Source: Magnetospirillum sp. SS-4 (GTDB lineage: Bacteria; Pseudomonadota; Alphaproteobacteria; Rhodospirillales; Magnetospirillaceae). From it: DNA of 64,000 bases. Under the pieces are notes generated by a model. It had not been told where the DNA came from. It saw only the letters and a program-made list of their open reading frames with translations, and did not search any database. Shown here in pieces: positions 46,474 through 62,005 of this stretch. Location of the stretch: assembly GCF_902729425.1 (NCBI RefSeq), contig NZ_CACVCH010000001.1, positions 131,501 to 195,500 on the forward strand, written 5' to 3'. Each line of letters opens with the position of its first letter. The first letter of the stretch is position 1. The position numbers and the translations under genes are program-made.

Positions 46474-47250
46474 TCAGGACCGAAGCTTGAACTGGACCGG
46501 TATGACGAATTCCAGGTCCTGCCCGCCGCGGTCGCCGGCAAAGCCGGCGGGGACCGGCGGCAGCGGGTCGGCGGCGGCGATCATGTCCGTCACCGCCTTG
46601 TCCAGCAGGGGGCTGCCTGATCCCTTGACCACGCTCCAGGCCTGGAGCTTTCCCGTCCGGTCGATGCGGAACTTGAGCAGCACCACGCCCTCGGTATTGG
46701 TCAGGCGGGCGCGGCGGGGATACTGGCGGTGCTTCTCCAGCCAGGAGAACAGGGTTCCCAGATAGGCGGAGTTCTGCTTGTTGGCCAGCATGGCGGCATC
46801 GACCCGCAGGACGCCCGGTTGACCGCCGGCACCGCTGTTCGACGCGGCGGGGCCGGCCGCTGCCGGCGGAGTGGCGGCGACGCTTTCCGCCGCCGGCGCC
46901 GCCTCGCGCTGCGGCGTGGGCTGTTCGGCGGGCTGCGGCGCCGGTTCGGGCCGAGGCTCGGCCTTGGGCGCGGGCACCGGCCTGGCCGCCGCCGCCCGAG
47001 ACCGGACGACGGGCTTTTCCACCGGCTTGGGCGGTTGCGGCGCGGGTAGGACGGTGGCCGGCGGCGGAATGTCCTGAGCCTTGGGGGTGGCGGCCCCGCC
47101 TCCCTTGGGGCCGAGGCTCAACGGCGACAGCATCACCTGTAGCGGGACCGGCGGAGAGGGCGGCAGGCGAGCCGGCGGCATGGCGAAGAAGACCAGTCCG
47201 GTCAGGATGACGGCGTGCAGGGTGGCGGAAACGGGAAGGGCCGAACGCAT
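46474..47250 (-). CDS. TonB-family protein
   Basis: 258 residues. An N-terminal hydrophobic anchor is followed by a long Pro/Ala/Glu-Lys-rich spacer (about residues 60-140, such as PAPQPPKPVEKP and PEPAPQPAEQP). The C-terminal TonB domain reads SWLEKHRQYPRRARLTNTEGVVLLKFRIDRTG in segments. It transmits proton-motive energy to outer-membrane receptors for iron or other ligands. ExbB and ExbD are not adjacent. It lies downstream of a Fur-like box. Confidence 0.92.
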   Translation of the reverse strand: MRSALPVSATLHAVILTGLVFFAMPPARLPPSPPVPLQVMLSPLSLGPKGGGAATPKAQDIPPPATVLPAPQPPKPVEKPVVRSRAAAARPVPAPKAEPRPEPAPQPAEQPTPQREAAPAAESVAATPPAAAGPAASNSGAGGQPGVLRVDAAMLANKQNSAYLGTLFSWLEKHRQYPRRARLTNTEGVVLLKFRIDRTGKLQAWSVVKGSGSPLLDKAVTDMIAAADPLPPVPAGFAGDRGGQDLEFVIPVQFKLRS

Positions 47251-47687: not shown

Positions 47688-48077
47688 GTGCAGGGAAAGC
47701 ATCGCAGCAGCGTTCGGCAGTCGGGCCGTCTCGGACGGTTCGGCGCGTGGCTGGCTGCCCTTGCGCTCCTGCTTCAGGTAATTGTTCCATTGGTGCCGGC
47801 CCAGGCGGCCATGGCGCTGGAGCAGGACCTGACCGCCTCCATCTGCCATTCTTCCGACGCTCCGGGCGAGGCCGGTACTCCCGCCAAGGCCAAGGGCGAG
47901 CACTGCCAGTTCTGCCAGACCCACATGGGCGCCAAGATCCTGCCGCCCACGCCGACCGCCTGGGTCGCGCCGGAAGCGGAAAGCCGTCCGGCGCCCGGTC
48001 GCCCGACCGCGCATGCGGCGCCGGAGCAATCCGAACGCCAGCCCCAGACCCAGCGAGGTCCGCCTCTCCGCTCCTGA
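47688..48077 (+). CDS. DUF2946-like secreted Cys/His protein, first gene of the metal operon
   Basis: About 129 residues. A signal peptide (FGAWLAALALLLQVIVPLVPAQA) is followed by a putative metal site: Cys53-His54, then HCQFCQTH with Cys73, Cys76 and His79. The spacing (Cys, about 20 residues, then HCXXC) matches DUF2946-like proteins, which often occur with copper or TonB genes. The start may be GTG 47688 or TTG 47685 downstream of AAGAGG. A similar protein is encoded again at 58774, at the other end of the operon. Likely a periplasmic metal-binding or sensing protein; this is inferred. Confidence 0.75.
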   Translation: MQGKHRSSVRQSGRLGRFGAWLAALALLLQVIVPLVPAQAAMALEQDLTASICHSSDAPGEAGTPAKAKGEHCQFCQTHMGAKILPPTPTAWVAPEAESRPAPGRPTAHAAPEQSERQPQTQRGPPLRS

Positions 48078-48132
48078 CCGCCTGATCGTGGGGCCTAGCC
48101 CCATCGCCGTCGTGGAGAATGGAGGACAAGGC

Positions 48133-48321
48133 ATGAGCGCTTCCCCCGTCAAGGGTTTGGCCAAGACCGATTCCATCGGTTTCGGCTCGTTGGTCCTGAG
48201 CACCGGCCTGACCGTCGCGTCCCTGATCCTGGTGCCCGCCGTGTCGCAGAGCCTGGGCGTGGGGCCCAGCCTGACCGGCGCGCTTCGGGTCGTGCTGATG
48301 AAAGCGGCGGCCAGGGTCTGA
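48133..48321 (+). CDS. Small membrane protein, 62 residues, unknown
   Basis: A perfect GGAGG at 48121-48125 precedes the ATG. One hydrophobic segment (GFGSLVLSTGLTVASLILVPAV) suggests a single-span protein. I do not recognise a family. Its stop overlaps the start of the next gene by one base (TGATG), so it belongs to the operon. Confidence 0.65.
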   Translation: MSASPVKGLAKTDSIGFGSLVLSTGLTVASLILVPAVSQSLGVGPSLTGALRVVLMKAAARV

Positions 48322-48614
48322 TGCGCCCGTCGGACGCCTATCTCCTTGGATTGGCGCTGGCCGTGACCCTGTTCGCGGCCAGCTTCGCCGATGCCGCCCT
48401 GGGGCTGGCGCGGGAACGTTCCGCCCTGGCGCGCAAGGCGGAGTTGGTGGAGCGCCTGGGCCTGACGGACCTGGTGCTGTTCACCGAGGCTCGCTACACC
48501 CGCCACCCCAGTCAGGCCGACCTGCATTCCGCCTTTCAGGACCATCCCTTCGCCCTGGACCACTTCCCTTCCGGATCGCTGTTGCCGCCGCCGCGCCTGA
48601 AGGGCCGCTCATGA
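48321..48614 (+). CDS. Membrane-anchored protein of unknown function, 97 residues
   Basis: N-terminal anchor (YLLGLALAVTLFAASFADAAL) followed by a mainly charged periplasmic part (ARKAELVERLGLTDLVLFTEARYTRHPSQ). No known family recognised. The stop overlaps the permease start by 4 nt. Being directly before an ABC permease, it may be an accessory of that transporter. Confidence 0.65.
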   Translation: MRPSDAYLLGLALAVTLFAASFADAALGLARERSALARKAELVERLGLTDLVLFTEARYTRHPSQADLHSAFQDHPFALDHFPSGSLLPPPRLKGRS

Positions 48615-49744
48615 ATTCGTGGATCGGCAAGCAGCGGAACCTTCTCGACTTCACCTTGTCGTCGCTGTCGCGCAGACGGGGCAAGACGCTGGGCATGCTG
48701 GCCGTCTACACCAGTATCGTCTTCGTGCTGGCCTCGGTGATGCTGTTCTCGCACGCCATCCGGCGCGAGGCCGCCATCGTGCTCGTCAAGAGCCCCGAGG
48801 TGCTGGTCCAGCGCATGGTGGCCGGGCGCCACGACCTGATCCCCGCCCGTTACCTCGACGCCATCCGCGGCATCCGGGGCGTCCAGTCGGTCGAGGGTCG
48901 GCTGTGGGGCTATCTGTTCGATCCGTCGGCAGCGGCCAACTACACCCTGATGGTTCCGGCCAGCCCCCGCATCGAGCCGGGCAAGGTGATCATCGGCGAC
49001 GCGGTGGCGCGGGCCAGAAGCGCCGAGCCCGGCGATTTGATGAGCTTCCGCGCCCATGACGGAACCCTGGTCCAGTTCAAGGTGGATGGCGCCATCGGAC
49101 GTGAATCCGCCCTGGTTTCCGCCGATCTGTTCCTGGTGTCCGAGACCGACTTCCGCCGCCTGTTCGGCATTCCGGAGGGTTTGTTCACCGATCTGGCGGT
49201 CTCGGTCCGCAATCCGCGCGAGGTGGGGAAAATCGCCGAGAAGATCGACGCGGCCCTGCCCGACACCCGCATCGTGCTGAGAGACGAGATCCTGCGCACC
49301 TACGAATCGGTGTTCGACTGGCGCGAAGGCATGCTGCTGGTGTTGCTGGCCGGCGCCATCCTGGCCTTCGCCATCTTCTCGTGGGAAAAGGCCTCCGGCC
49401 TGTCGGCGGAAGAGAAGCGCGAGATCGGCATCTTGAAGGCGGTGGGCTGGGAAACCGGCGACGTGATCCGCCTCAAGATGCTGGAAGGGCTGGTGGTGTC
49501 GCTGTCGGCCTTCCTGCTGGGCTACCTGCTGGCCTACGCCCATGTCTTCCATTTGGGTGCCGGGCTGTTCGAGCCGGCGCTGAAGGGCTGGGCGGTGATG
49601 TATCCCAAATACCGCCTCACTCCCTTCGTGGACGAGTTGCAGGTGGCGACCTTGTTCTTCTTCACCGTCTTTCCCTATACGGTCGCCACTGTGGTTCCCA
49701 TCTGGCGGGCGGCCATCATCGATCCCGATCAGGTGATGCGATGA
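48611..49744 (+). CDS. FtsX-like ABC permease (MacB/LolC/E type)
   Basis: 377 residues. An N-terminal membrane helix, a large periplasmic domain (about residues 40-230) and three C-terminal helices give the FtsX/MacB topology. The conserved C-terminal coupling motif EEKREIGILKAVGWETGDVIRLKMLEG is clear. It works with the ATPase encoded next (ATGA overlap). The family acts as mechanotransmission or lipoprotein/substrate extrusion systems rather than import. The substrate is unknown. Confidence 0.88.
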   Translation: MNSWIGKQRNLLDFTLSSLSRRRGKTLGMLAVYTSIVFVLASVMLFSHAIRREAAIVLVKSPEVLVQRMVAGRHDLIPARYLDAIRGIRGVQSVEGRLWGYLFDPSAAANYTLMVPASPRIEPGKVIIGDAVARARSAEPGDLMSFRAHDGTLVQFKVDGAIGRESALVSADLFLVSETDFRRLFGIPEGLFTDLAVSVRNPREVGKIAEKIDAALPDTRIVLRDEILRTYESVFDWREGMLLVLLAGAILAFAIFSWEKASGLSAEEKREIGILKAVGWETGDVIRLKMLEGLVVSLSAFLLGYLLAYAHVFHLGAGLFEPALKGWAVMYPKYRLTPFVDELQVATLFFFTVFPYTVATVVPIWRAAIIDPDQVMR

Positions 49745-50421
49745 TCCGTCTCACCGACGTCAGGAAGGCCTTCAACCAGGGCCGGGAGAACGAGTTCTGG
49801 GCCTTGAAGGGCATCGACCTGTCGGTGGAGGCCGGCAAGGTGACGGTGTTCCGGGGGCCAAGCGGCTCGGGCAAGACCACGCTGCTCACCCTGGTGGGCT
49901 GTCTGGCCAGGCCGACCTCGGGGCGGGTGCGCCTGAAGGACCGCGACATTTCCGGCCTGCCCGAACGCTTCCTCACCGATATCCGGCGCTCCACCTTCGG
50001 CTTCGTGTTCCAGCAGTTCAATCTGCTGAAGGGCATCACCGCGATCGAGAACGTGATGATCCCGGCCTATCCCCTCGGCATCGACCGAACGGAGCTTTCC
50101 CGGCGCGCCCACGCGCTGCTCGAGCGTCTGGACATCGCGCCCAAGGCCCGGTCCAACGCCGAATGGCTGTCGGGCGGCGAGGCCCAGCGGGTGGCCATCG
50201 CACGGGCCTTGATCAACGACCCCGAGGTGGTGATCGCCGATGAGCCCACCGCCAACCTGGACAGCGAGCGCTCGAAACAGTTCCTGGATATCGTCGAGAC
50301 CCTGAAGGAATCCGGCAAGACCGTGCTGATGACCAGCCACGACCCCCTGGTGTGCGAGACGGCGGTGGTGGACCGGGTGGTGTCGTTGCGTGACGGGCAG
50401 TTGGTGGAGAGGGGGGGATGA
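49741..50421 (+). CDS. ABC transporter ATP-binding protein (LolD/MacB type)
   Basis: 226 residues. Walker A GPSGSGKTTLL, Q-loop FQQFNLL, signature LSGGEAQRVAIARAL, Walker B VVIADEPTANLD and the switch His in MTSHDP are all present. It energises the FtsX-like permease encoded just before. The signature and length match the MacB/LolD group. Confidence 0.93.
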   Translation: MIRLTDVRKAFNQGRENEFWALKGIDLSVEAGKVTVFRGPSGSGKTTLLTLVGCLARPTSGRVRLKDRDISGLPERFLTDIRRSTFGFVFQQFNLLKGITAIENVMIPAYPLGIDRTELSRRAHALLERLDIAPKARSNAEWLSGGEAQRVAIARALINDPEVVIADEPTANLDSERSKQFLDIVETLKESGKTVLMTSHDPLVCETAVVDRVVSLRDGQLVERGG

Positions 50422-51464
50422 TCTTTCAGCCCGCCATCATCGCCCTGCTGCTGGCCTCCCTGACCGGCGCCCTGCTGGTGGCCGGACAGCTGCCGTTCTC
50501 GGTCAGCGTGCTGCGCCACTGGAATACGGCCAGCGGGTCCGAACGTCAGCTGGAGATGGAGAAGCGGACATATCTGGTCTCGACGCTGCTGGCGGTGGTT
50601 CTCGCCGCCGAACTGGCCTCGCTGGTGCTGTTCGTGTTCAACGCCGACCGCATGTCCACCCTGTTCGTCGGCGCCATGTGCGCGGTAGGCACGCTCAACG
50701 TCAACGAGTTCGGCTTTCCTTCCCTGTACCTGAAGATGGCGGCCTTCTTTGCCGCCTCGGGCTGGCTGGCGCTCAATCACCTGGATTCGCGCGGCCATGA
50801 CTACCCGCTGGTCAGGGTGAAATACGGCGCGCTGCTGGTGCTCTGCCCCCTGCTGCTCGCCGCCGCAGGCGTGCAACTGGCCTATTTCCTGGGCTTGCGG
50901 GCCGATGTCATCGCATCGTGCTGCTCGACCCTGTTTTCCGGCAACACGCAGGTGACCAGCGACAGGCTGGCCACCCTGGACCCCGCCGTGGCCCTGGGCG
51001 TAATGGGAGGCGCGATGGCGGTGGTCTTCGCGCTGGGCCGCCGGGTCCAGGCGACCGGCCGCGGCGGCGTCGCCTTCGCCGCCGCCGCGCTGCTGGCGTT
51101 CGTCGCGGCGCTGGAAGCGGTGGTGGCCGCCCTGTCGGTCTATGTCTACGAAATGCCGCACCACCACTGTCCGTTCTGCATCCTGAAGGGCGAGTACGGC
51201 CATGTGGGCTATGCCCTCTATCTGCCGCTGTTCATCGCCGCCGCCCTGGGGCTGGCTGCCGGCATCTGCCAGCCGGCCTGCCGGATCGCCAGCCTGACCG
51301 AGGCGGCGCCCCGCATCCTGCGACGCTGCGTCACCGCCTCGATGGCGTCTTACGCCCTGTTCGGACTGGTGGCCGCTTGGCTGGTCTGGCGCTCGCACCT
51401 GATCCTGATGGAGGAATCGCCCATCAACGCCATCCTGCTCAATCTGTCCGGAGGCCAGCCATGA
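50418..51464 (+). CDS. Polytopic membrane protein with HHHCPFC motif
   Basis: 348 residues, about eight hydrophobic segments. Two cysteine motifs stand out: VIASCCSTLFSG near residue 175 and EMPHHHCPFCILK near residue 253. A CPXC motif at the membrane face, followed in the operon by a TlpA-type thioredoxin, suggests a thiol-redox or metal-relay role. No named family is recognised. It overlaps the ATPase gene and the TlpA gene by 4 nt each. Confidence 0.75.
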   Translation: MIFQPAIIALLLASLTGALLVAGQLPFSVSVLRHWNTASGSERQLEMEKRTYLVSTLLAVVLAAELASLVLFVFNADRMSTLFVGAMCAVGTLNVNEFGFPSLYLKMAAFFAASGWLALNHLDSRGHDYPLVRVKYGALLVLCPLLLAAAGVQLAYFLGLRADVIASCCSTLFSGNTQVTSDRLATLDPAVALGVMGGAMAVVFALGRRVQATGRGGVAFAAAALLAFVAALEAVVAALSVYVYEMPHHHCPFCILKGEYGHVGYALYLPLFIAAALGLAAGICQPACRIASLTEAAPRILRRCVTASMASYALFGLVAAWLVWRSHLILMEESPINAILLNLSGGQP

Positions 51465-51949
51465 GGATCTTTCGTTTCCTGGCCGTCCTGCTGCTGCTTT
51501 CCGCCTGTGGTGAATCGGGTGGCAAGACGCCTCATGTGGGCGATGCCCCGCCAGCCTTCAAGCTGGCCACCCTGGACGGGAGCACGGTGGATTATCCCGC
51601 GCAACTGGCTGGAAAGGTGGTTGTCCTGCGGTTCTGGGCAACCTGGTGCCCGTTCTGCAAGGACGAGATGAAGATGATCCAGACCGTCTGGAGCCAGTCC
51701 CGCGACAGGGGATTCGAGGTGCTGGCGGTCAATGCCGGGCAGGAGAAAGGCGACATCGCCGAGTTCATCGCCAAGCTGGGCGTCACTTATCCGGTCCTGC
51801 TCGACCCCGGCTCCAAGGTGACCAGGGCCTATGGCGTCACCGGCCTGCCCATGACCCTGTTCGTGGGACGCGACGGCAAGGTCAAGGGCCGCATCCTGGG
51901 CGAGACCGACGAGGCCACCTTCCGCCGCAAGGTGGAGGAACTGCTATGA
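51461..51949 (+). CDS. TlpA/ResA-type thioredoxin-like lipoprotein
   Basis: 162 residues. A lipobox (LLLLSAC-G) leads to a thioredoxin-like domain with the active site FWATWCPFCKDEM (WCPFC) and the cis-Pro GVTGLPMTLFVG. It probably reduces disulfides or metal-binding thiols in the periplasm, for example cysteines of the neighbouring metal proteins. TlpA-type proteins assist copper-centre assembly in other bacteria (family knowledge). Confidence 0.9.
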   Translation: MRIFRFLAVLLLLSACGESGGKTPHVGDAPPAFKLATLDGSTVDYPAQLAGKVVVLRFWATWCPFCKDEMKMIQTVWSQSRDRGFEVLAVNAGQEKGDIAEFIAKLGVTYPVLLDPGSKVTRAYGVTGLPMTLFVGRDGKVKGRILGETDEATFRRKVEELL

Positions 51950-52110
51950 GCACGCCCGAGACCTGCGACCTTTGCGGGCTGCCGGTGCCCAAGGACGGAA
52001 TACACTTGAAGGCCGGCGACAAGGACATGGCGTTCTGCTGCGAAGGCTGCCGGGGCATCTGGGTGATGCTGAACCCGGATGCCGTGAAGGAAAAAGGGGA
52101 CAGGAAATGA
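51946..52110 (+). CDS. Small zinc-ribbon-like metal-binding protein (P-type ATPase associated)
   Basis: 54 residues with CDLCGLPVPKDGI and FCCEGCRGIW, two cysteine pairs. This is the metal-binding module found N-terminal in some heavy-metal P-type ATPases, here as a separate protein. It would pass metal to the ATPase encoded later in the operon (inferred). Confidence 0.85.
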   Translation: MSTPETCDLCGLPVPKDGIHLKAGDKDMAFCCEGCRGIWVMLNPDAVKEKGDRK

Positions 52111-52400
52111 TGAACAACGAAACCAACCATCTTGGACATGAACTTGGAAAGGGGGCCGTCATGGCTGTTGGATATGTGGCGGGCAAGAGCCTGCTGGGGC
52201 GTCTGCTGTTCAATCCGGTCGTCATGCTGGGCGCGGGAATCGCGGTCGGCTATTACGGCTACAAGTACCGCAAGGAGATCGTCGCCGCCGTGGCCAGGGC
52301 CTCCGACATGGGCAAGGACATGGTGCTCAACGCCAAGGAGAACCTGGCCGATCTGGTGGAGGAGAACCGCGAGGCCGAGGAAGGCAAGGGCAAAGAATAA
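52107..52400 (+). CDS. YtxH-like small membrane protein
   Basis: 97 residues. One hydrophobic stretch (LLFNPVVMLGAGIAVGYYGY) is followed by an amphipathic charged helix (KEIVAAVARASDMGKDMVLN...ENREAEEGKG), the pattern of YtxH-type proteins. The role is unknown. It overlaps the previous gene by 4 nt and lies in a run of metal-transport genes. Confidence 0.7.
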   Translation: MMNNETNHLGHELGKGAVMAVGYVAGKSLLGRLLFNPVVMLGAGIAVGYYGYKYRKEIVAAVARASDMGKDMVLNAKENLADLVEENREAEEGKGKE

Positions 52401-52428
52401 CCCGGTCAGCTGACATGAGGGGGCCGTC

Positions 52429-53115
52429 ATGATCGCAAGACGGACGAAAGCGGCCAGGCAGGCGCGGGTCCAGGCGCTGTGGCAGGCCATGAGGGTGCGG
52501 CATCGCTCGGCCGGCCATGTGCGCTTCGACCTGCCCGAGGCCTTGCGTACCGACGAGGCGTCGTGGGCGTTCCGGACGGAACTGGCCCGCGTCGAGGGTG
52601 TCTACCGCGTCCATGTGTTCACCGGGGCGGGCAAGCTGTCCATCCGCTTCATGGAGGATGTGTGCCCGCTGCCAACGCTGGTGGCGGCCTTGTCCGGCCT
52701 GGTGGCAAGTCTGGCCGAGGGGGGGCAAGCGCCTGCCCCGGTCCCCGGCGGGCGAGAAGACGGCCCGGCGGGCCAGCCACCCGGCTGGCTGGCGCGGCTG
52801 AAGGAAGCGGCGCCCGTCCGCGCCGTCCGCCAGCGCTACGACGACCTGAGGGCCAAGGCCGAGGTGTTGGGCAAGATCGTCGCCATCAAGACCGGCAAGC
52901 CGATCCCGGCGGGAAATGATTTGCAGGAATGGATGATCCATTTCCTCAACGACCTGGTGGCCTTCTATCTGATCCGCCAGCACTGGGACCGCATCATCGG
53001 CCAGTGGCTGCCCCGGCCCTGGACATACCGCTATCAATGGCTGTCGGTGCTCTACCTCACCTTCCTGCTGGTCCGCTACCGCAAGGGGGCGGTGCCCAAG
53101 GTGGCGAGGAAATGA
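52429..53115 (+). CDS. HMA-like domain protein with C-terminal membrane segment
   Basis: 228 residues. Residues about 30-90 (HVRFDLPEALRTDEASWAFR, then VYRVHVFTGAGKLSIRF) look like a ferredoxin-fold HMA domain, but lack the CXXC metal site. The C-terminal part has hydrophobic segments (FLNDLVAFYLI and WLSVLYLTFLLVRY). It may dock with the ATPase encoded next (4-nt overlap). This is a structural inference. Confidence 0.65.
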   Translation: MIARRTKAARQARVQALWQAMRVRHRSAGHVRFDLPEALRTDEASWAFRTELARVEGVYRVHVFTGAGKLSIRFMEDVCPLPTLVAALSGLVASLAEGGQAPAPVPGGREDGPAGQPPGWLARLKEAAPVRAVRQRYDDLRAKAEVLGKIVAIKTGKPIPAGNDLQEWMIHFLNDLVAFYLIRQHWDRIIGQWLPRPWTYRYQWLSVLYLTFLLVRYRKGAVPKVARK

Positions 53116-55526
53116 GCGGAGCCATCCGGGTCGTCCACCTCTTGCGGCGCCGGGTCCGCATCCTGATCCCGGCGCTGAAGGGCGACGGCGAGCGTCTGTG
53201 CCTGCTGGAAATCCTGCTGAGAAAGCACGGGGCGATCCTGGACATCAAGGTGGTCGCAGCGCTGGGTTCGCTGGCCATCCGCTTCGACCCCAGGGCCATG
53301 CCGGCGGAAAACCTGCTGACCCTGCTGAACAAGGTGGCTGGAAACATCGCCCGCGCCCCCCGCGCTTCGATGGGGGAGCCCGACCGTTTGCCCGACGGCG
53401 CGGAGGGCGAGGTCTGCGTCGCCGTGGAAGGCATGACCTGCGCGTCCTGCGCCGCCCTGATCCAGATGAGCCTGAACCGCGATCCCGCCGTGCGCGCCGC
53501 CTCGGTCAACTACGCCACCGCCACGGCGACGGTGGTGGGTGTGCTGGACCGCCCCGCCCTGGAAGCCCGTATCCGGGCGCTGGGCTACGAGGCGCGGCCC
53601 ATGGACACGCTCTCTCAGCGCAAGCTGATCGTCGAGCGTGAGCGCGCCCTGGTCCGGGAGTCCCGCCGGCGCGCCATGGCGGCCTGCCTGCTCAGCCTGC
53701 CGGTGATGGTCATCGGCATGGCCATGCCCCGCTCGCGCCTGTGGCATCTGGTGGAATTCGCCCTGACCACCCCGGTGGTGCTGGGCGCCGGCCGCCCGTT
53801 CTTCCTGCGCGCCTGGAAGCTGGCGAGGAATCGTGCCGCCAACATGGATACCCTGATCGCCCTGGGCTCGGGGGCCGCCTACGGCCACTCGGTGTCCTCG
53901 CTTCTGGCCGGACGCCACCATCTCTATTTCGAGGCCGCCGCCGGCATCGTCTCCTTCGTGCTGCTGGGACGCTGGCTGGAAGAACGTGCCAAGGGCAAGG
54001 CCGGCGACGCCATCCGCAAGCTGCTGGACCTTCAGCCGCCCACCGCCACCGTGGTCCGTGGCGAGGTCGAGGTGGTGGTGCCGGTGGACGAGGTCGCCGT
54101 GGGCGAGGTCCTGGTGGTGAGGCCGGGCGAGCGCGTGCCGGTGGACGGCGAGGTGGTCTTCGGACGCACCACCATGGACGAATCCATGGTGACCGGCGAA
54201 AGCATGCCGGTGGTCAAGGGGCCGGGCGACGCGGTGATCGGCGGCTGCATCAACGGCGCCGGCAGCTTCCGCATGACGGCCTCCGCCGTCAGCCAGGATA
54301 CCGTCCTGGCCGGCATCGTGCGCATGGTCGATCACGCCCAGGCCGCCAAGCTGCCGGTTCAGCGCATGGCCGACCGGGTGTCGGCGGTATTCGTTCCCGG
54401 CGTGGTGGCGGTGGCCGGCGCCACCTTCGCCACCTGGCTCGCCGGCGGAGCGCGGATGTCCTCCGCGCTGGGCAATGCCGTTTCGGTGCTGCTGATCGCG
54501 TGTCCCTGCGCCCTGGGTCTGGCCACGCCCACCGCCATCATGGCCGCCACCGGACAGGCGGCGCGGCGCGGTATTTACATCCGCAACGGCGAGGCGCTGG
54601 AGACGGCGGCGGGCCTCACCGTCCTGGTGTTCGACAAGACCGGTACGGTGACCGAGGGACGGCCGGTGGTGTCGCATCTGCGCCTGGAGCCGGGCTTCGA
54701 CAAGGCAAGCGCCCTGGCGCTGGTGGCGGGAGCGGAACTGGGCTCCGAGCATCATCTGGGCCGCACCGTGGTCGATTTCGCCCGTTCCCTGGGGATCGAA
54801 CCCGTCCGGGCCGGCGACTTCTCCGCCGAAATCGGGCGAGGGGTGGTCGCCCGCATCGACGGCCACGAGGTGCTGGTGGGCAGCCGCACCTTCCTGGCCG
54901 AACGCGGCATCGCAGGGGGCGATGCGGTTCCCGCCGGCCAGACTCCGGTGCTGGCCGCCATCGACGGGCGTCTCGCCGTGACCATGGGCATCTCGGACCG
55001 GCCCCGTCCCACCTCCGCCGACGCCATCGCCCGCCTGCATCGTCTGGGGGTACGCACCATCATGGCCACCGGCGACGTGGAGGAGGCCGCCCGCGCCATC
55101 GCCGCCGAGGTGGGCATTCCCGAAGTGGTGGCCCAGGCCTCGCCCGCCGCCAAGCAGGCCCTGGTGGCCGGGCTGCGCGCCGCCGGCGAAAAGGTGGGCA
55201 TGATCGGCGACGGCGTCAACGACGCCCCGGCCCTGGCCTGCGCCGATGTGGGCTTCGCCATCGGCACCGGCACCGACATCGCCATCGAGGCGGCCCCGGT
55301 CACCCTGGTGGGCGGCGACATCGCCAAGGTGGCCGAGATGATCGAGCTCAGTCGCAAGACCATGCGGATCATTCGCCAGAATCTGGTCTGGGCCATGGGC
55401 TACAACACCATCGCCATTCCCGGCGCCGCCCTGGGCGAGCTCAGCCCCATGGTGGCGTCGTCGGCCATGGCGCTGTCCTCGGTCTCGGTGGTGACCAACT
55501 CGCTGCGGCTGCAGAAGGCCGGATGA
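53112..55526 (+). CDS. Copper-type P1B ATPase
   Basis: 804 residues. N-terminal HMA-like domain without CXXC (about 5-80), then an HMA with GMTCASC (Cys110, Cys113). The membrane metal site is IACPCALGLATP (464-466), the phosphorylated Asp is in FDKTGT (Asp508), and the hinge motif GDGVNDAP is intact. The CPC motif indicates copper or silver; direction is usually export to the periplasm. The nucleotide-binding motif reads SEHHL (545-549) instead of the usual SEHPL, a notable change. It ends one base before the TauE/SafE-like gene. Confidence 0.93.
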   Translation: MSGAIRVVHLLRRRVRILIPALKGDGERLCLLEILLRKHGAILDIKVVAALGSLAIRFDPRAMPAENLLTLLNKVAGNIARAPRASMGEPDRLPDGAEGEVCVAVEGMTCASCAALIQMSLNRDPAVRAASVNYATATATVVGVLDRPALEARIRALGYEARPMDTLSQRKLIVERERALVRESRRRAMAACLLSLPVMVIGMAMPRSRLWHLVEFALTTPVVLGAGRPFFLRAWKLARNRAANMDTLIALGSGAAYGHSVSSLLAGRHHLYFEAAAGIVSFVLLGRWLEERAKGKAGDAIRKLLDLQPPTATVVRGEVEVVVPVDEVAVGEVLVVRPGERVPVDGEVVFGRTTMDESMVTGESMPVVKGPGDAVIGGCINGAGSFRMTASAVSQDTVLAGIVRMVDHAQAAKLPVQRMADRVSAVFVPGVVAVAGATFATWLAGGARMSSALGNAVSVLLIACPCALGLATPTAIMAATGQAARRGIYIRNGEALETAAGLTVLVFDKTGTVTEGRPVVSHLRLEPGFDKASALALVAGAELGSEHHLGRTVVDFARSLGIEPVRAGDFSAEIGRGVVARIDGHEVLVGSRTFLAERGIAGGDAVPAGQTPVLAAIDGRLAVTMGISDRPRPTSADAIARLHRLGVRTIMATGDVEEAARAIAAEVGIPEVVAQASPAAKQALVAGLRAAGEKVGMIGDGVNDAPALACADVGFAIGTGTDIAIEAAPVTLVGGDIAKVAEMIELSRKTMRIIRQNLVWAMGYNTIAIPGAALGELSPMVASSAMALSSVSVVTNSLRLQKAG

Positions 55527-56216
55527 ATGGAGGACGATCTCGACTATATGCTGGCGTTCATGGCGGGCCTGCTGGGCAGCGGGCACTGCGTCGGCATGTG
55601 CGGCTCGCTGGTCTCCGCCTGTTTCATGCGCATGGGCGAGGCGGGCAAGGGGATCGTGCCGGCGCTGTCCTATCACGGCGCCCGGATCACCGTTTACGGA
55701 CTGGTCGGCCTGCTGGCCGCCGCCCTGGGGCTGGCGCTGGTCTCCACCGGCATCATCGGCAAGGTCCAGGGAATATTGCAGATCGTCGCCGGGGTGGTGG
55801 TGATCGTCCTGGGGCTGGATCTCCTGGGCTGGCTGCCCCGGCGGTTGCCGCTGATCGGGCTGCCCATGGCGGCCTTCGGCAAGGTCTATTTCGCCGCCGC
55901 CGGCCAAGGCCCGGCGCGGGGGACGGCACTGGCCGGGCTGATGAACGGGCTGATGCCCTGCGCGCTGACCCTGGCCATGGCGGTGAAGGCCACCGCCGCC
56001 GCGACGGTCTGGCAGGGCGGCCTGCTGATGCTGGCCTTCGGGGCCGGAACCCTGCCGTCCATGCTGTTCGTCAGTCTGGTGCTGGGGCGTCTGGGCGCCC
56101 GGGCGCGAGGCTGGCTGCTGAAGGGCGCGGCCATCGTGGTCATCGCGCTGGGCGCGGCGACCCTGATTCAGGGCCTGCGCTTCTTCGCCGTGATGAAAAA
56201 TCTGTCCAATTGGTGA
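55527..56216 (+). CDS. Sulfite exporter TauE/SafE family (DsbD-like) membrane protein
   Basis: 229 residues, about six hydrophobic segments. It starts with the family motif FMAGLLGSGHCVGMCGSLVSA, with two conserved Cys, and has a second motif GLMNGLMPCALT. This subgroup is often found next to P1B ATPases such as CcoI and is thought to take part in copper or thiol handling for oxidase maturation; this is family knowledge, not seen here. Confidence 0.87.
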   Translation: MEDDLDYMLAFMAGLLGSGHCVGMCGSLVSACFMRMGEAGKGIVPALSYHGARITVYGLVGLLAAALGLALVSTGIIGKVQGILQIVAGVVVIVLGLDLLGWLPRRLPLIGLPMAAFGKVYFAAAGQGPARGTALAGLMNGLMPCALTLAMAVKATAAATVWQGGLLMLAFGAGTLPSMLFVSLVLGRLGARARGWLLKGAAIVVIALGAATLIQGLRFFAVMKNLSNW

Positions 56217-56239
56217 GTTGTCTTGGAGAGGAGAGCAGA

Positions 56240-56839
56240 ATGAATCGTCGCAAGTTCCTGGCCGCCGGTACCACCCTGGGCCTGGCCGCCACAATCGCCG
56301 TTCCCGCCGTGGCCGCCGAGGGCGATGGCACGCCGGCGCAGTTCATGCCCAAGAAGCCCAAGGACCCCACCCCCCTGGTGGACGAACTGGCCAAATACCC
56401 GAAGTGCCCCTATTGCGGCATGGACCGCAAGGAATACCACTTCAGCCGTCACCTCGTTCACTACTCGGACGATCTGGTGGACGGCACCTGCTCCATCCAC
56501 TGCGCCGCCGTGTCGCTGTCGGTCAACCTGGACCGCATGCCGAAGGCCATCTATGCCCCCGACAACGGTTCGGGCGAGGCGTTGAAGCCCCTGACCAACG
56601 CCGAGACCGCCGCCTACGTCATCGGCGGCGAGCATCGTGGCGTCATGACCAGGAAGCCCAAGACCTCGTTCGCCTCCAAGGTCGCCGCCGAGGCCGCCAA
56701 GGGCGACGGCGAGGTGGTGGACTTCAACAAGGCCTTGATGCTCTCCTATATGGGCATGGCCGAGGACACCATGATGATCCGCATGAGGCGGGACGAAAAA
56801 CGCCGTAAGATGATGGGTGAAATGCAGCACAAGGGCTGA
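56240..56839 (+). CDS. NosL-like periplasmic metal-binding protein with Tat signal
   Basis: 199 residues. A twin-arginine-type signal (MNRRKFLAAGTTLGLAATIA) precedes KCPYCGMDRKEYHFSRHLVHY, the CXXCGM motif of NosL copper proteins. A further SIHCAAV provides another Cys. The C-terminal region is charged and Met-rich (MRRDEKRRKMMGEM). NosL delivers Cu(I) to nitrous oxide reductase in other bacteria; here the target is unknown. Confidence 0.85.
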   Translation: MNRRKFLAAGTTLGLAATIAVPAVAAEGDGTPAQFMPKKPKDPTPLVDELAKYPKCPYCGMDRKEYHFSRHLVHYSDDLVDGTCSIHCAAVSLSVNLDRMPKAIYAPDNGSGEALKPLTNAETAAYVIGGEHRGVMTRKPKTSFASKVAAEAAKGDGEVVDFNKALMLSYMGMAEDTMMIRMRRDEKRRKMMGEMQHKG

Positions 56840-56847
56840 GTTTTCCG

Positions 56848-56869
56848 GCGGGGGCCTTGGCGCCCCCGC
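56848..56869 (+). other. Hairpin inside the operon before the second nosL-like gene
   Basis: GCGGGGGC (56848-56855) pairs with GCCCCCGC (56862-56869) across a 6-nt loop, with no T-tract after it. It could stabilise the upstream mRNA end or slow transcription. Confidence 0.4.
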
Positions 56870-56890
56870 TGCCTATCCCGAGGAAACATC

Positions 56891-57379
56891 ATGCGTCCGA
56901 TCATCGTCGCGCTGCTGTCGCTGTTGCTGTTCGCCGCCCCGGCCACGGCGGGAGAAGTGGTGATCGCCCCGCCCGGCCCCGACAGCGTCTGCCCGGTCTG
57001 CGGCATGTTCGTCGCCAAGTACCCGGAATGGGTGGCCGCCGTGGTGTTCAAGGATGGTCACGCCCATTACTTCGACGGGGCCAAGGACCTGTTCAAGTTC
57101 CTGCGCGACCTCGGGCGTTACGATCCCGGCCACGAGGCGGCGGACATCGCCATCGTGGCGGTGACCGACTATTACGGGGTCAGGACCATCGACGCCCGTT
57201 CCGCCTTCTTCGTGGTGGGTTCGGATACACTGGGACCCATGGGGCATGAACTGGTGCCGCTGGCCAGCAAGGCCGACGCCGACGAATTCATGGCCGATCA
57301 CAAGGGCAAGCGCATCCTGACCTTCGACCAGGTCGGCGCGGAATTGCTGAAGAGTCTCGACCGGGGCGGGGTGAAGTGA
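56891..57379 (+). CDS. nosL: NosL-family copper chaperone
   Basis: 162 residues. A signal peptide ends near AAPATAGE. The metal motif VCPVCGMFVAKYPEW is the classic NosL CXXCGM. DGHAHYFDGAKDLFKFL and YYGVRTIDARSAFFVVGS continue the NosL fold. It is a Cu(I)-binding periplasmic protein, unlipidated here. It overlaps the ATP-grasp-like gene (GTGA). Confidence 0.9.
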   Translation: MRPIIVALLSLLLFAAPATAGEVVIAPPGPDSVCPVCGMFVAKYPEWVAAVVFKDGHAHYFDGAKDLFKFLRDLGRYDPGHEAADIAIVAVTDYYGVRTIDARSAFFVVGSDTLGPMGHELVPLASKADADEFMADHKGKRILTFDQVGAELLKSLDRGGVK

Positions 57380-58545
57380 GGGCCGTATCGGTCTCCGATG
57401 ATCGCCTTTGGGAAGCCATCGGGCGCGACATCGGCGCCCCGGAGGTCACCCAGGCCCTGCGGTCCCGCCAGGGATTGCTTTCCCCCTGCGCCGTGCTGCT
57501 GCCCCGGCATCAGGCGGAGCGGGTGGAAGCGGCGGTCAGGGCCCTTCACGCCGCCTTCTCCCATCCCGGCCTGGTGGCGGCCGCCCTGGAGATCGCCAGG
57601 GGCGAGGAATTGCCGGATAACGGCCTGGGAGGCTGGATTCTGGGGTTCGATTTCCACCTGACCCCGGAAGGGCCGAAACTCATCGAGATCAACACCAATC
57701 CCGGCGGCATGCTGGCGGTGGCGACGCAGGCGCGCGCCCTGGCGGCGCTGCACCCCGAACTGGGAGCCGCTTGCGAGGTTGAGGCCGTGGCCCTGGAGGC
57801 CTTTCACGAGGAATGGCGCCGCCAGAACGGAGACCATCCATTGCGGAGCGTCGCCATCGTCGATGACGACCCGCCCAACCAATATCTGGAGCCGGAATTC
57901 CAGCTGTACCGGCGGATGTTCGAGGCGGCCGGCATCAAAGCCGAGGTCATCGACCCCGGCCAGTTCTCCGCCGGCAGGGCCGACATGGTCTATAACCGGC
58001 TGGTGGATTTCAGCCTGGAATCCCAGGCCCATGCCGTCCTGGCCGAGGCGTGGCGTGGTGGGGGGACCGTGGTCACGCCGGACCCCCGCGCCCACTTCCT
58101 GTATTCCGACAAACGGGTGATGGCGCTGCTGTCCGACGAGGCGGCACTGCGCTCCATCGGGGTGCGTCCCGATATCGCCGCCCAGGTGGCGCGGGTGGTT
58201 CCCCCCACCGTGCCGGTGTCGGCGGCCAACGCCGAGAGCCTGTGGGCCGAACGCCGGCGCTGGTTCTTCAAGCCGGCCAAGGGCCATGCCGGCAAGGCGG
58301 TCTATCGCGGCGAGAAGATTACCAATTCGGCCTGGCCGACCGTGCTGTCCTCGCCCTACGTGGCCCAGCGTTATGTTCCCGCCGCCCGGGTCCATCTGGA
58401 CCATGTGGGAACTGATCTCAAGATGGATCTGCGCGCCAACGCCTGGCAGGGGCGGGTCATCCAGATGGCCGCGCGGCTATACGAAGGGCAGACCACCAAC
58501 TTCCGCACCCCCGGCGGCGGTTTCGCCCCGGTGTTCGTGGCATGA
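57376..58545 (+). CDS. ATP-grasp-like ligase, possibly circularly permuted
   Basis: 389 residues. Two ATP-grasp elements are visible but in unusual order. The acidic metal-binding motif KLIEINTNPGG (Glu104, Asn106, Asn108) comes first; in canonical ATP-grasp enzymes it follows the lysine motif. The ATP-lysine region RWFFKPAKGHAGKAVY (Lys299) and the strand YVAQRYVPAARV come later, with DLKMDLRANAW near residue 350. This order matches circularly permuted ATP-grasp proteins. Such enzymes join carboxylates to amines, often in peptide synthesis. The substrate is unknown; a link to a metal-binding product is speculation. It has no signal peptide, so it is cytoplasmic. GTG start. Confidence 0.75.
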   Translation: MRAVSVSDDRLWEAIGRDIGAPEVTQALRSRQGLLSPCAVLLPRHQAERVEAAVRALHAAFSHPGLVAAALEIARGEELPDNGLGGWILGFDFHLTPEGPKLIEINTNPGGMLAVATQARALAALHPELGAACEVEAVALEAFHEEWRRQNGDHPLRSVAIVDDDPPNQYLEPEFQLYRRMFEAAGIKAEVIDPGQFSAGRADMVYNRLVDFSLESQAHAVLAEAWRGGGTVVTPDPRAHFLYSDKRVMALLSDEAALRSIGVRPDIAAQVARVVPPTVPVSAANAESLWAERRRWFFKPAKGHAGKAVYRGEKITNSAWPTVLSSPYVAQRYVPAARVHLDHVGTDLKMDLRANAWQGRVIQMAARLYEGQTTNFRTPGGGFAPVFVA

Positions 58546-58694: not shown

Positions 58695-58736
58695 TTGACC
58701 ATGATCAAAGACGCCACCCCCGATCACTTCTAAGTA
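58695..58736 (+). promoter_or_regulatory. FNR/DNR-type box with promoter
   Basis: TTGACCATGATCAA (58695-58708) matches the FNR/DNR consensus TTGAT-N4-ATCAA at all but one base. If its centre is at -41.5, transcription would start near 58743, with TAAGTA (58731-58736) as the -10. It lies in AT-rich DNA after the 3' end of the metal operon and upstream of DUF2946-crp-nor, so it likely drives that unit under low oxygen or nitric oxide. Confidence 0.75.
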
Positions 58737-58773: not shown

Positions 58774-59190
58774 GTGAAGTCCGGCATGATTCGCCCGTCG
58801 CTGAAATCGGCCATCGTGGTCCTGCTGCTGTTCGTCGGCATGGCGACGCAGTCGCTGACCGCCGGTTTCGCCATGGTGGCGGGCGGCGGCGTTCCTGGCG
58901 CTGCCGCGTCCCTGACGGTGGCGGGCGATGCCGACGGCTTCCTCGCCGACGTGCTGCTGTCGGTCTGCTCGCAGGACAAGGGCAAGCGCGCCAAGACCGG
59001 GGCATCGGCCGACCACTGCCTGTACTGTCCGCCCCTGGCCCATCGGCTGGAAGCCGACGCCGCCTCGGCCGCCGTCCCGCTCCCGCGGACGGCGATCCTG
59101 GACGAACCCTGGCCCGGCCCCCAGGTTCCTCCCCCGTCGCGGCGGATGGCCGGCGACGGGCCATCCCGCGCTCCCCCGTCCATCGCCTGA
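58774..59190 (+). CDS. DUF2946-like secreted Cys/His protein (second copy)
   Basis: 138 residues. Signal peptide (SAIVVLLLFVGMATQSLTAGFA) followed by a Cys (Cys65) and HCLYCPPLAH (His81, Cys82, Cys85, His90). The same layout is encoded at 47688, at the other end of the adjoining metal operon. GTG start at 58774 is supported by GAGGGGG at 58759-58765. It lies just downstream of the FNR-type box and upstream of the regulator and nor genes, so it is probably co-regulated with them. Confidence 0.75.
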   Translation: MKSGMIRPSLKSAIVVLLLFVGMATQSLTAGFAMVAGGGVPGAAASLTVAGDADGFLADVLLSVCSQDKGKRAKTGASADHCLYCPPLAHRLEADAASAAVPLPRTAILDEPWPGPQVPPPSRRMAGDGPSRAPPSIA

Positions 59191-59297: not shown

Positions 59298-60119
59298 ATG
59301 AATCTGGATTATGTGGCGTCCCCTGCCAAGGGGGCTCCGGCCCTGGAATTCGGCCATTGGCCGAGACGCCATCCCGACCGGCTGGCCCTGGAGCGTCTGG
59401 CCGACGTAGCGCCGTTCGACCTGCTGGACGCCGACGAGATCGAGTCCTTGCTGTCGGTCGCCTCGGTATCGCATGTCACGGAAACGGCGACGCTGTTCAC
59501 TGCCCGCACCCCGGCCGACCATCTGCATGTGGTGATGCGGGGCAAGGTGGTTCTGCACGGTCCCGATGGCGTGATCGTCGATGGAGTCGCGGCGCCGGCT
59601 ATCCTGGATGCCGCCGATCTGTTCGTCGGCGGTCATGTCTTCGCCGCCGAGGCCATGACGGGGGCGCTGGTGGTGCGGATTCCGCGTGCCGCCATGCTGG
59701 CGCAGTTGCAGGCCAGCAGCCCGCTCGTTCACGCTTTTCTCGGCCTGGTGGCCGCCGCCACCCAAACCCTGGCCGATGCCTTGATGGCCCAGCGCTGCCT
59801 GACCAGCGTCCAGCGTCTGGCCGCCTTCCTCTTGGAGCAGGCAGCCAGGGCCGGAGCCGAGGACAGCTTCGCGCTCGACATCCCCAAGAAGGCCATCGCC
59901 GGTCAGTTGGGCATGACGCCAGCCCATTTCGCCCGCTCGCTGACCCGGCTGGTTTCGGCCGGCGTGGTCGAGCGGCGCAACCGCAACACCATAATCCTCA
60001 ATGATATTTCCGCCCTGCGTGCCGTGCTTGAAGGGGAGCTCGGCATCGCCACCCAGGACGGAAGCACGGCCCAGCACAAGCAACTGGCCGCCTACAGGAC
60101 CTTCAAGAGCCTTTCCTGA
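59298..60119 (+). CDS. Crp/Fnr-family transcription regulator (DNR/NnrR-like)
   Basis: 273 residues. An N-terminal cyclic-nucleotide-binding-like domain (LFTARTPADHLHVVMRGKVVLHGPDG) is followed by a winged helix with IPKKAIAGQLGMTPAHFARSLTRLVSAGVVERR. No N-terminal iron-sulfur cysteine cluster of the FNR type is seen, so a DNR/NnrR-type nitric oxide sensor is more likely. It sits immediately before norCB, and an FNR/DNR-type box lies upstream. Confidence 0.88.
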   Translation: MNLDYVASPAKGAPALEFGHWPRRHPDRLALERLADVAPFDLLDADEIESLLSVASVSHVTETATLFTARTPADHLHVVMRGKVVLHGPDGVIVDGVAAPAILDAADLFVGGHVFAAEAMTGALVVRIPRAAMLAQLQASSPLVHAFLGLVAAATQTLADALMAQRCLTSVQRLAAFLLEQAARAGAEDSFALDIPKKAIAGQLGMTPAHFARSLTRLVSAGVVERRNRNTIILNDISALRAVLEGELGIATQDGSTAQHKQLAAYRTFKSLS

Positions 60120-60141: not shown

Positions 60142-60591
60142 ATGTCGGACGTTCTGACAAAAGCCGCCGCCAGAAACATCTTCTATGGCGGCACGGCATT
60201 CTTTTTCATCATCTTCGTCGGTCTGGTGGCGCACAGCGTCAGCACCGTCAACGCCATGAACGAGACCCACCCCGTCACCGCCTCGGTGGCGGCGGGAAAG
60301 CATGTGTGGGAGAAGCACGCCTGCATCAACTGCCACACCATCATGGGCGAGGGCGCCTATTACGCCCCTGAACTGGGCAATGTCTGGGTCCGCTTCGGCG
60401 GGCGCGAGGACGCCCAGGCCGGTCGCGACGCCATCAAGAACTGGATCAAGGCCATGCCCACCGGCATCGAGGGCCGCCGCCAGATGCCCAAGTTCGACCT
60501 GACCGAAAGGGAACTGGACGATCTGGTCGACTTCTTCAAGTGGACCAGCGAGGTCAATACCCAGAACTGGCCGCCCAAGGTTTCCGGCTAA
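60142..60591 (+). CDS. norC: Nitric oxide reductase cytochrome c subunit NorC
   Basis: 149 residues. One membrane anchor (NIFYGGTAFFFIIFVGLVAHS) leads to the heme c site HACINCHTIMGEGAYYAPEL (61-65), the NorC signature, with a distal Met in RRQMPKFDLT. It feeds electrons to the catalytic subunit. GGAGGAG precedes the ATG; norB follows after 18 nt. Confidence 0.97.
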   Translation: MSDVLTKAAARNIFYGGTAFFFIIFVGLVAHSVSTVNAMNETHPVTASVAAGKHVWEKHACINCHTIMGEGAYYAPELGNVWVRFGGREDAQAGRDAIKNWIKAMPTGIEGRRQMPKFDLTERELDDLVDFFKWTSEVNTQNWPPKVSG

Positions 60592-60609
60592 AAAGGGGGA
60601 GCAATAAAT

Positions 60610-61950
60610 ATGAAATACGAATCGCAGAAGGTCGCGCTCTACTACTTCGCCGGAGCGCTGGGCCTGTTCGTCGCCCAGGTGCTGTTCGGCGTCGTGCTGG
60701 GCACCATCGTGGTTGCCCCCAACACCCTGTCCGAACTGCTGCCCTTCAACGTCGCCCGCATGATCCACACCAACGCGCTGATCGTGTGGCTGCTGATGGG
60801 TTTCTTCGGCTGCGCCTATTACCTGATCCCGGAAGAATCCGAGACCGAACTGCACAGTCCCAGGCTGGCCATCATCCAGTTCTGGCTGTTCCTGTTCGGG
60901 GCCGCCGCCGCGGTGGTCGGCTATCTGTTCCGCATCCACGAGGGACGCGAGTTCCTGGAACAGCCGCTGTGGATCAAGCTGGCCATCGTCGTGGTGGCGC
61001 TGATGTTCCTCTACAACGTCACCATGACGGTGTTGAAGGGCCGCAAGACCGCCATCACCAACGTCCTGCTGCTGGGGCTGTGGGGCATCGCGGTGTTCTT
61101 CCTGTTCTCGCTCTACAACCCCGCCAACCTGATCCTCGACAAGGTGTTCTGGTGGTGGGTCGTCCATCTGTGGGTGGAAGGCGTGTGGGAACTGGTCATG
61201 GCCTCGGTGCTGGCCTTCCTGATGATCAAGATGACCGGCATCGACCGCGAGGTGGTCGAGAAGTGGCTTTACGTCATCATCGGCCTCGCCCTTTTTTCCG
61301 GCATCCTCGGCACCGGGCACCATTACTACTGGATCGGCATGCCGGCCTATTGGCAGTGGATCGGCTCGGTGTTCTCGACGCTGGAGGTCTTGCCGTTCTT
61401 CGCCATGGTGATCTTCACCTTCATGATGGTGTGGAAGGGCGGCCGCACCCATCCCAACAAGGCGGCGCTGCTGTGGTCGCTGGGCTGCTCGGTCTTCGCC
61501 TTCTTCGGCGCCGGCGTCTGGGGCTTCCTGCACACCCTGGCTCCCGTCAACTACGTGACCCATGGCACCCAGATCACAGCAGCCCATGGGCATCTGGCCT
61601 TCTACGGCGCCTATGTGATGCTGAACATCGCCATGTTCACCTACGCCATGCCCAACCTGCTGAAGCGCGAGCCCTATAATCAGGTGCTCAACATGTGGGG
61701 CTTCTGGATCACCTCCTCGGGCGTGACCTTCATGACCTTCGCGCTCACCTTCGCCGGCGTGGTGCAGACGCATCTGCAACGGGTCATGGGCATGAATTTC
61801 ATGGAAGTGCAGGACGCGCTGGGCCTGTTCTACTGGATGCGTCTGGGGGCGGGCGTCGCCACCCTGGTGGGCGTCATCCTGATCGTCTGGTCGCTGGCGG
61901 TTCCCGGCGGCAAGCGGGCCGGGGCGGCGATCGTCCAACCGGCCGAGTAA
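60610..61950 (+). CDS. norB: Nitric oxide reductase catalytic subunit NorB
   Basis: 446 residues, 12 membrane helices expected. Heme and iron ligand blocks are seen in ARMIHTNALIVWLLMGFFG, WWVVHLWVEGVWELV (with the catalytic-site Glu), GTGHHYYWIG, and THGTQITAAHGHLAFYGAYV. It reduces two NO to N2O at the heme b3/FeB centre. A ribosome-binding site GGGGGAG precedes the ATG. Confidence 0.97.
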   Translation: MKYESQKVALYYFAGALGLFVAQVLFGVVLGTIVVAPNTLSELLPFNVARMIHTNALIVWLLMGFFGCAYYLIPEESETELHSPRLAIIQFWLFLFGAAAAVVGYLFRIHEGREFLEQPLWIKLAIVVVALMFLYNVTMTVLKGRKTAITNVLLLGLWGIAVFFLFSLYNPANLILDKVFWWWVVHLWVEGVWELVMASVLAFLMIKMTGIDREVVEKWLYVIIGLALFSGILGTGHHYYWIGMPAYWQWIGSVFSTLEVLPFFAMVIFTFMMVWKGGRTHPNKAALLWSLGCSVFAFFGAGVWGFLHTLAPVNYVTHGTQITAAHGHLAFYGAYVMLNIAMFTYAMPNLLKREPYNQVLNMWGFWITSSGVTFMTFALTFAGVVQTHLQRVMGMNFMEVQDALGLFYWMRLGAGVATLVGVILIVWSLAVPGGKRAGAAIVQPAE

Positions 61951-61958
61951 GTGAGAGC

Positions 61959-61991
61959 GGGGCGGCGGTGCGTTGCCGCCGCCCCATTTTT
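61959..61991 (+). terminator. Intrinsic terminator/attenuator between norB and norQ
   Basis: GGGGCGGCGG (61959-61968) pairs perfectly with CCGCCGCCCC (61976-61985) across a 7-nt loop and is followed by ATTTTT. Since norQ starts 15 nt later with a good ribosome-binding site, this probably reduces norQD relative to norCB. Confidence 0.75.
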
Positions 61992-62005
61992 CTTCGGAGA
62001 AATTC

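Follow-up and report, generated by a model that had tools for sequence, protein, structure and literature searches.

A conserved gene cluster with two NosL-like proteins and predicted copper(I) delivery function next to norCBQD in Magnetospirillum sp. SS-4

A run of 15 co-directional genes (g01 to g15; 47688-58545, plus strand) was identified in Magnetospirillum sp. SS-4, within a stretch of 64,000 nucleotides (termed the window; RefSeq assembly GCF_902729425.1, contig NZ_CACVCH010000001.1, positions 131,501 to 195,500) of a 4.5 Mb draft genome (contig label C6). The run consists of a conserved core surrounded by variable shells and probably represents an operon that delivers copper(I) to cuproenzymes synthesized when oxygen is low. 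It is a real and conserved module, assigned to copper from its sequence, and is composed of known component families plus two unnamed ones (g03 and g06). Re-derivation of the genes from the sequence corrected the 14 genes counted in the original prediction, whose own list likewise sums to 15, and bore out the gene types named there, their order and the plus strand. Overlaps, claimed to measure 1-10 nt at most junctions, are indeed present at 9 of the 14; they span 1-4 nt, and none has 5-10 nt (g01 to g15, with g09 starting at 52110: 55, -1, -4, -4, -4, -4, -4, -1, 28, -4, 0, 23, 51 and -4 nt).

Related loci were collected by scanning genome contigs with g06 (six peptide patterns; distant relatives are under-sampled), and their genes were called by codon usage in this high-GC DNA. 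Among the 69 loci obtained, some of them on short contigs, the core families were present in 69 (g06), 67 (g05), 66 (g04), 64 (g03), 57 (g14) and 52 (g13) cases. These and the following family counts omit opposite-strand TlpA matches (L039, L060, L073), unrelated P-type ATPases (L034, L054, L065) and one ABC match elsewhere in L067. Of 49 loci whose flanks were long enough by analyst-set limits (g06 frame at or after position 4500, plus 7500 nt behind), 46 carry g03, g04, g05 and one or more NosL-like genes on one strand with g06, the exceptions being L036, L043 and L067. The cluster is therefore not a chance array, and the conserved co-occurrence in other genomes, proposed as a check on the original prediction, was indeed observed. 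The shells are formed by TlpA, TRASH, YtxH-like, HMA-like, P1B, DsbD_2, DUF2946 and ATP-grasp genes. Since the core is accompanied by TlpA (g07) in 30, by the P1B ATPase (g11) in 24 and by the ATP-grasp gene (g15) in 11 of the 69 loci, the cluster does not form a single, inseparable route; g02 and g08 occur in 25 loci each, g09, g10 and g12 in 24 each and g01 in 11, with g15 once located on the opposite strand (L051). The norB gene lies inside the fetched flanks in 4 of the 69 loci. The core is shared by many denitrifiers and related bacteria; it ranges across Alpha- and Betaproteobacteria (among them the assembly of Rhodobacter capsulatus DSM 1710, L045), Campylobacterota and metagenome-assembled genomes (MAGs) filed under other phyla; the Magnetospirillum-like locus of one MAG called Stygiobacter (L020; Ignavibacteriota) probably stems from a mis-binned contig. 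Four layouts were distinguished: leader-NosL-NosL-g03-g04-g05-g06 in Rhodobacterales, SCO-g03-g04-g05-g06-(TlpA)-NosL-NosL in Rhodocyclales, the long arrangement seen in the window, and one from Campylobacterota with 31-34% identity of g06. The loci closest to the window derive from assemblies named Terasakiella, Paramagnetospirillum and Phaeospirillum.

The core opens with g03 (48321-48614), coding for a small His-rich protein of an unnamed family with an N-terminal hydrophobic stretch and a conserved TEARYTRHPSQADLHSAFQDHP..HFP motif, for which the Pfam search yielded no match. It is followed by genes for an FtsX/LolC-like permease (g04, 48611-49744; PF02687, 31.0 bits), the profile of which retrieved LolC (7arh, E 2e-9), and for an ABC ATPase of the MacB/FtsE/LolD kind (g05, 49741-50421; ABC_tran, 107.5 bits). 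The polytopic membrane protein g06 (50418-51464) carries the motif HHHCPFC and belongs to the second unnamed family: no match was found in Pfam, NCBIfam or PDB sequences, a fold search with its predicted structure (pLDDT 87.5) returned nothing at E<=0.001, a plasmid search remained without match, and among 289 genomes of a class sample it was present in its own genome only. The two NosL-like proteins are encoded by g13 (56240-56839; PF05573, 34.5 bits, cut-off 24), with an RR signal, CPYCGM and C84..H87C88, and by g14 (56891-57379; 102.9 bits with the same model), an exported protein with CPVCGM, M117 and H137, the profile of which retrieved the solved NosL chains 7og7, 7osf, 7znq and 2hpu. 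The twin-arginine translocation (Tat) profile score of g13 (13.5) is below the cut-off of 16.7, and no lipobox was seen by eye in either protein. Candidate metal ligands are conserved in 93-100% of homologues in g06 (M87, C88, C168, C169, H249, H250, C251, C254), g13 (C56, C59, M61, C84, H87, C88) and g14 (C34, C37, M39, M117, H137).

Copper is the best reading of the cluster's metal, with Cu(I) as the presumed cargo. Families, conserved Cys, His and Met positions and neighbours in other genomes all support the copper handling with thiol chemistry that had been proposed. Neighbours of the core include a cluster of SCO1/SenC-type proteins (16 loci) and PCuAC (3 loci, L020-L022), one member of each being Pfam-checked, a TonB receptor with CPNHM (L072), and nos genes in L023, L039, L064 and L079 (by clustering; NosD Pfam-checked in L039 only). 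The iron P19/FetMP system was set aside because the neighbours favour copper, as was, without a search aimed at it, a link to magnetosomes. The nitrous oxide (N2O) reductase NosZ was found in 12 of 12 core-bearing relatives vs 28 of 48 without the core (p = 0.004; relatives not independent). NosZ was matched in 34 of 50 core-bearing genomes (those of 50 of the 69 loci; one match is a 53-bit fragment), and in 27 of the 289 genomes of the class sample (some fragments), which differs in taxonomic make-up and is thus background, not control. NorB of at least 540 bits was present in 29 of the 50 genomes, and any match at E 1e-10 in 35.

The shell genes located between and around the core genes would add thiol and metal chemistry. 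The TlpA/ResA-like thioredoxin g07 (51461-51949; AhpC-TSA, PF00578, 95.5 bits; WCPFC) is likely a lipoprotein, with LSAC read by eye, and g08 (51946-52110) codes for a 54-residue TRASH/ATPase-cat_bd protein (PF12156, 27.4 bits, cut-off 27) with five Cys retained in 93-100% of homologues. The HMA-like protein g10 (52429-53115) scores 15.7 bits with PF19991 (HMA_2), below the cut-off of 30. It precedes the P1B-type ATPase g11 (53112-55526; E1-E2_ATPase 175.4, HMA 45.7 bits; CPC read from the sequence), which exceeds the copper model TIGR01511 by 164 bits (561.1 vs cut-off 397) and has a copper ATPase as best PDB match (3rfu), copper ATPases being nearest among solved structures. Together with its cluster homologues, g11 forms a clade of its own (24 rows, support 98/99) vs four paralogues of the host genome, several branches being long. 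Elsewhere in the host (L088, contig C66), another P1B ATPase gene follows three small genes in an arrangement resembling g09-g11. The membrane-protein gene previously labelled TauE/SafE is present as g12 (55527-56216), while its family match is DsbD_2 (PF13386, 138.7 bits; GHC.GMCG), with H20, C21, M24 and C25 in 93-100% of homologues. Small membrane proteins are encoded by g02 (48133-48321; no family match in Pfam) and by the open reading frame g09 (52107-52400, or start 52110); for the latter, the label YtxH-like could not be substantiated, Pfam giving just one sub-threshold unrelated match.

The first gene of the unit, g01 (47688-48077; DUF2946, PF11162, 46.9 bits), is, judging from motif spacing, better read as a copper-sensing leader of the CruR/CutF type than as a structural part. 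It displays CQFC, 46 residues, RGPP, 3 residues and the stop. The available text on CruR (PMC9426467) describes a DUF2946 leader with CxxC, 45 residues and RAPP close to the stop, via which copper lowers expression, whereas copper raises expression via a CutF-type leader according to that of PMC9973294. A second predicted leader, g16 (58786-59190, plus strand; ATG at 58786 conserved), with CLYC, 46 residues and RAPP, stands first in the following unit; it scores 18.8 bits with PF11162, under the cut-off of 23.7, and its homologue in L016 gives no PF11162 match. Across the 69 loci, the leader pattern (spacing 38-54) was present in 42 of 15739 frames, two of them on the minus strand, vs 7 of 15739 for a control pattern with the last motif reversed. 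A leader belongs to 35 of the 59 loci with at least 900 nt before the core (10 of the 69 being too short to judge): 32 stand directly before the core at a distance of 33-209 nt, those of L014 and L023 lie within the core run, and that of L060 precedes the core by 784 nt. In the 520 nt ahead of the direct leaders, the box TTGAY-N4-RTCAA was detected in 14 of 32 cases vs 8 of 1198 stretches of equal length placed at random in these loci; this form was chosen after viewing earlier box matches, and related species are not independent. A plain FNR box with one mismatch allowed gave 9 of 32 vs 13 of 640. A CutF-style mRNA stem-loop over the next ribosome-binding site is not supported, RNA folding at the g01 and g16 junctions being no better than that of shuffles (z 0.18 and 0.32), and the window has no Rfam match at gathering scores.

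From these features, a route of copper delivery can be proposed. The two exported NosL-like chaperones (g13, g14) would hold Cu(I), and the LolC/LolD-type ABC complex (g04/g05) together with g03 and g06 would, at the expense of ATP from the cytoplasm, power movements in the periplasm by which copper passes onto or off the chaperones, by analogy with NosDFY/NosL. In the supply branch of this lineage, g08 and g10 may load the P1B ATPase g11 as an exporter of Cu(I), g07 and g12 may keep Cys ligands reduced, and g15 may make or modify a small thiol or peptide ligand. In many relatives, expression would be under the dual control of an FNR/Dnr-type box and a DUF2946 leader sensing copper during its own synthesis. 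A wider proposal is possible though rather doubtful: an undescribed ABC-powered copper-transfer machine, built from the LolC-type complex, two NosL-like chaperones and the new families g03 and g06, would serve several low-oxygen cuproenzymes under joint control by FNR/Dnr and a copper-sensing arrest peptide, the twin leader of the clade would subject nitric oxide (NO) reductase to control by copper, the copper status thereby determining the extent of nitrogen oxide reduction, and the ligase would make a copper-binding thiol also used by plasmid metal-resistance islands. Nitric oxide reductase itself is a non-copper enzyme.

Several observations weigh against copper delivery to low-oxygen cuproenzymes. 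The ABC step rests on analogy because g03 and g06 are without precedent. Within 1.3 kb, 24 of the 59 testable loci have no leader (among these, L062 has a DUF2946-like gene without the end motif, and in L026 a leader sits 2.8 kb ahead), and in the window no FNR/Dnr-type box was found in the 490 nt preceding g01. As to the metal, a TonB receptor with CPNHM adjoining the core in L072 obtained 159 bits with a haem-receptor model vs 117 with a copper-receptor model, both below cut-off, and g11 also passes the cadmium model TIGR01512 (388.8 vs 313.5 bits, +75). The latter score, the occurrence of one plasmid g15 relative within a mercury operon and the differences of the shells between loci would agree with a metal other than copper (e.g., zinc, iron or mercury) or with shells that are a loose metal island without joint route; this is nevertheless highly unlikely, as the NosL, SCO and PCuAC neighbours and the DUF2946 leader point to copper, g11 scores 172 bits higher with the copper model, and the core order is maintained.

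On the same side of the balance stand the enzymes to be served. Within the genus, the link to NosZ is weak (10 of 10 vs 4 of 7, p = 0.05; relatives not independent). At E 1e-10, no match was obtained for NosZ in 16 and for NorB in 15 of the 50 core-bearing genomes, and the isolate genomes G363, G373 and G377 have neither, so reduction of NO or N2O is not required for possession of the core. On another contig, the host carries a nos cluster that includes a NosL of its own. Instead of a general copper supply, a maturation machine dedicated to a single respiratory enzyme (NosZ or a cuproenzyme not yet recognised) would account for the kinship to NosL, for the four loci in which nos genes adjoin the core and for the enrichment of NosZ in core genomes. 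It appears distinctly unlikely, since the 16 genomes without NosZ match, the location and own NosL of the host nos genes, and the lack of a fixed enzyme neighbour of the core all argue against it. A general role in supplying cuproenzymes at low oxygen thus fits better than one restricted to NO and N2O. For a NO-reducing bacterium, the available text of PMC10390337 lists two nosL with adjacent locus tags, at a distance from the nos genes, and one of the two was found in the metaproteome.

The last gene of the run, g15 (57376-58545), encodes a predicted ATP-grasp ligase with the fold of glutathione synthetase/glutathionylspermidine synthetase. Its sequence matches are weak and it has no Pfam membership; the AlphaFold2 model (pLDDT 92.2 from 12 sequences) bears out the ATP-grasp-like enzyme originally proposed. 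Foldseek retrieved glutathione, homoglutathione and glutathionylspermidine synthetases over most of the chain (best E 1.4e-12, with a query TM of 0.65), with a query TM of about 0.5-0.68 overall and a root-mean-square deviation of about 6-7 A in the best matches; from these enzymes g15 differs by an identity of 11-14% and by its metal-gene neighbourhoods. In a phylum sample of 398 genomes, 127 had relatives, many of them belonging to a single family (f199); in the class sample, relatives were present in 3 of 289 genomes, host included. Of the relatives on 31 plasmids, 30 were labelled hypothetical or conserved hypothetical and one was without annotation. On one of these plasmids (pMR68, L096), mercury genes are located upstream of the relative and a small flavoprotein gene immediately precedes it. 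Judged by product names, copper, mercury or other metal genes were found in 14 of the 18 plasmid regions examined of the 31 (exceptions L097, L132, L135 and L142), RND efflux or DUF305 alone not being scored. Stretches half-way round the same plasmids contained metal genes in 2 of 12 cases vs 9 of 12 matching test regions (p = 0.006), six of the 12 test regions being 13 kb vs 9.2 kb for controls, a length bias that favours the test side.

This association with metal genes, together with the rise of expression by copper behind CutF-type leaders (PMC9973294, available text), would also suit a copper stress operon in which surplus copper is cleared by the pump, a thiol ligand and NosL-like buffers. 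Such a role is considered unlikely: the core is without pump, 45 of the 69 loci are without cluster-type P1B ATPase in the available sequence (some loci being short), and the core stands under FNR/Dnr-type boxes and beside SCO, PCuAC and nos genes, i.e., genes for enzyme assembly. Delivery of copper(I) to low-oxygen cuproenzymes is preferred.

No description of this gene set was found in full-text literature searches, where subscription journals are mostly missing, and each related system differs from it in specific traits. NosDFYL shares NosL-family chaperones and a periplasm-facing ABC complex, and four related loci adjoin nos genes; the core of the window, however, has a LolC-like permease instead of NosY, extra g03 and g06, and a pair of NosL-like proteins without obvious lipoprotein character, and the Pfam search detected no NosD family member in the unit. 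LolCDE and MacB are resembled by the g04 profile and g05, but g04 is far under the LolC/LolE equivalog cut-off (TIGR02212; 33.9 vs 362.45 bits) and is conserved with NosL-like genes. Copper ATPases of the CcoI/FixI and CopA types are like g11 P1B ATPases with HMA and CPC. The TRASH/ATPase-cat_bd domain occurs in CcoI, whereas in the window TRASH is a separate gene (g08), and the g11 clade stands apart from the CueR-side and FixHS-side paralogues of the host. With CruR (Bordetella) and CutF (Rhodobacter capsulatus), g01 and g16 have in common that they come first in their unit and carry CxxC and, close to the stop, R[AG]PP, with 46 residues between the two motifs (45 in CruR). The operons named in the available text of the CruR and CutF papers comprise TonB receptors, PepSY, SCO, PCuAC, RND, multicopper oxidase and NosZ/NosR, and a text search of it (PMC9426467, PMC9973294) yielded no NosL, FtsX, MacB or ABC transporter.

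Downstream of the run, the claimed adjacency to norCBQD was confirmed: g16 and a gene for a Crp/FNR-family regulator (g17, 59298-60119; PF13545 and PF00027, below the FtrB and FixK cut-offs) are followed by norC, norB, norQ and the start of norD (60142-64000), all on the plus strand, norD continuing beyond the window end. Ahead of g16, TTGACCATGATCAA (58695-58708, plus strand) forms an FNR/Dnr-type box, the only instance of the palindromic pattern TTGAY-N4-RTCAA in the window. Box (TTGACC-N4-TCAA) and g16-Crp-norC-norB order are kept in L015, L016 and L018. Among 20 nor loci, all drawn from the set of 29 genomes that bear the core and match NorB strongly, g16-Crp-norC was found in 3, belonging to the same three genomes, and in the nor locus of a Terasakiella assembly (L145) the series runs from an SCO-like gene through a leader and a putative Crp-like gene to norC; in the remaining 16, no leader was seen in the fetched stretch (about 4 kb; 2.8 kb in L150). 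Since it is seen in few of the 20 nor loci, the predicted copper leader before the NO reductase operon is clade-specific.

Further gene arrangements were noted around these loci. In L145 (reverse complement, 1-3983), a TonB-type receptor (ACPNHMNP), two CruR-like leaders and the SCO-like gene precede the Crp-like gene and norC, and in L083 two small membrane-protein genes, norE/F-like by eye, come after norD. The nos cluster of the host is clade II-like, as judged by a low score with the clade I model; its locus (L082, contig C40) includes, by eye, two small c-type cytochromes and NosL, with divergent SCO-, TlpA- and PCuAC-like genes. In the window, a TonB-like protein gene (by-eye name; 46474-47250, minus strand) is divergent from the operon, and a sulfur-oxidation cluster (SoxYZ, flavocytochrome-like; 12844-16414) and a cytochrome c maturation cluster (34229-39528) were recognized by eye on the plus strand.

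The release of N2O by denitrifiers depends partly on the copper supply to nitrous oxide reductase, and, apart from NosL, SCO and PCuAC, little is known of how copper is handed over in the periplasm. A conserved module with an ATPase and two unnamed families would be a new copper-transfer device. If true, the copper leader before norCBQD would link NO reduction directly to copper, and the recurrence of an unannotated g15-type ligase beside metal-resistance genes may indicate a metal-binding small molecule of a new kind.

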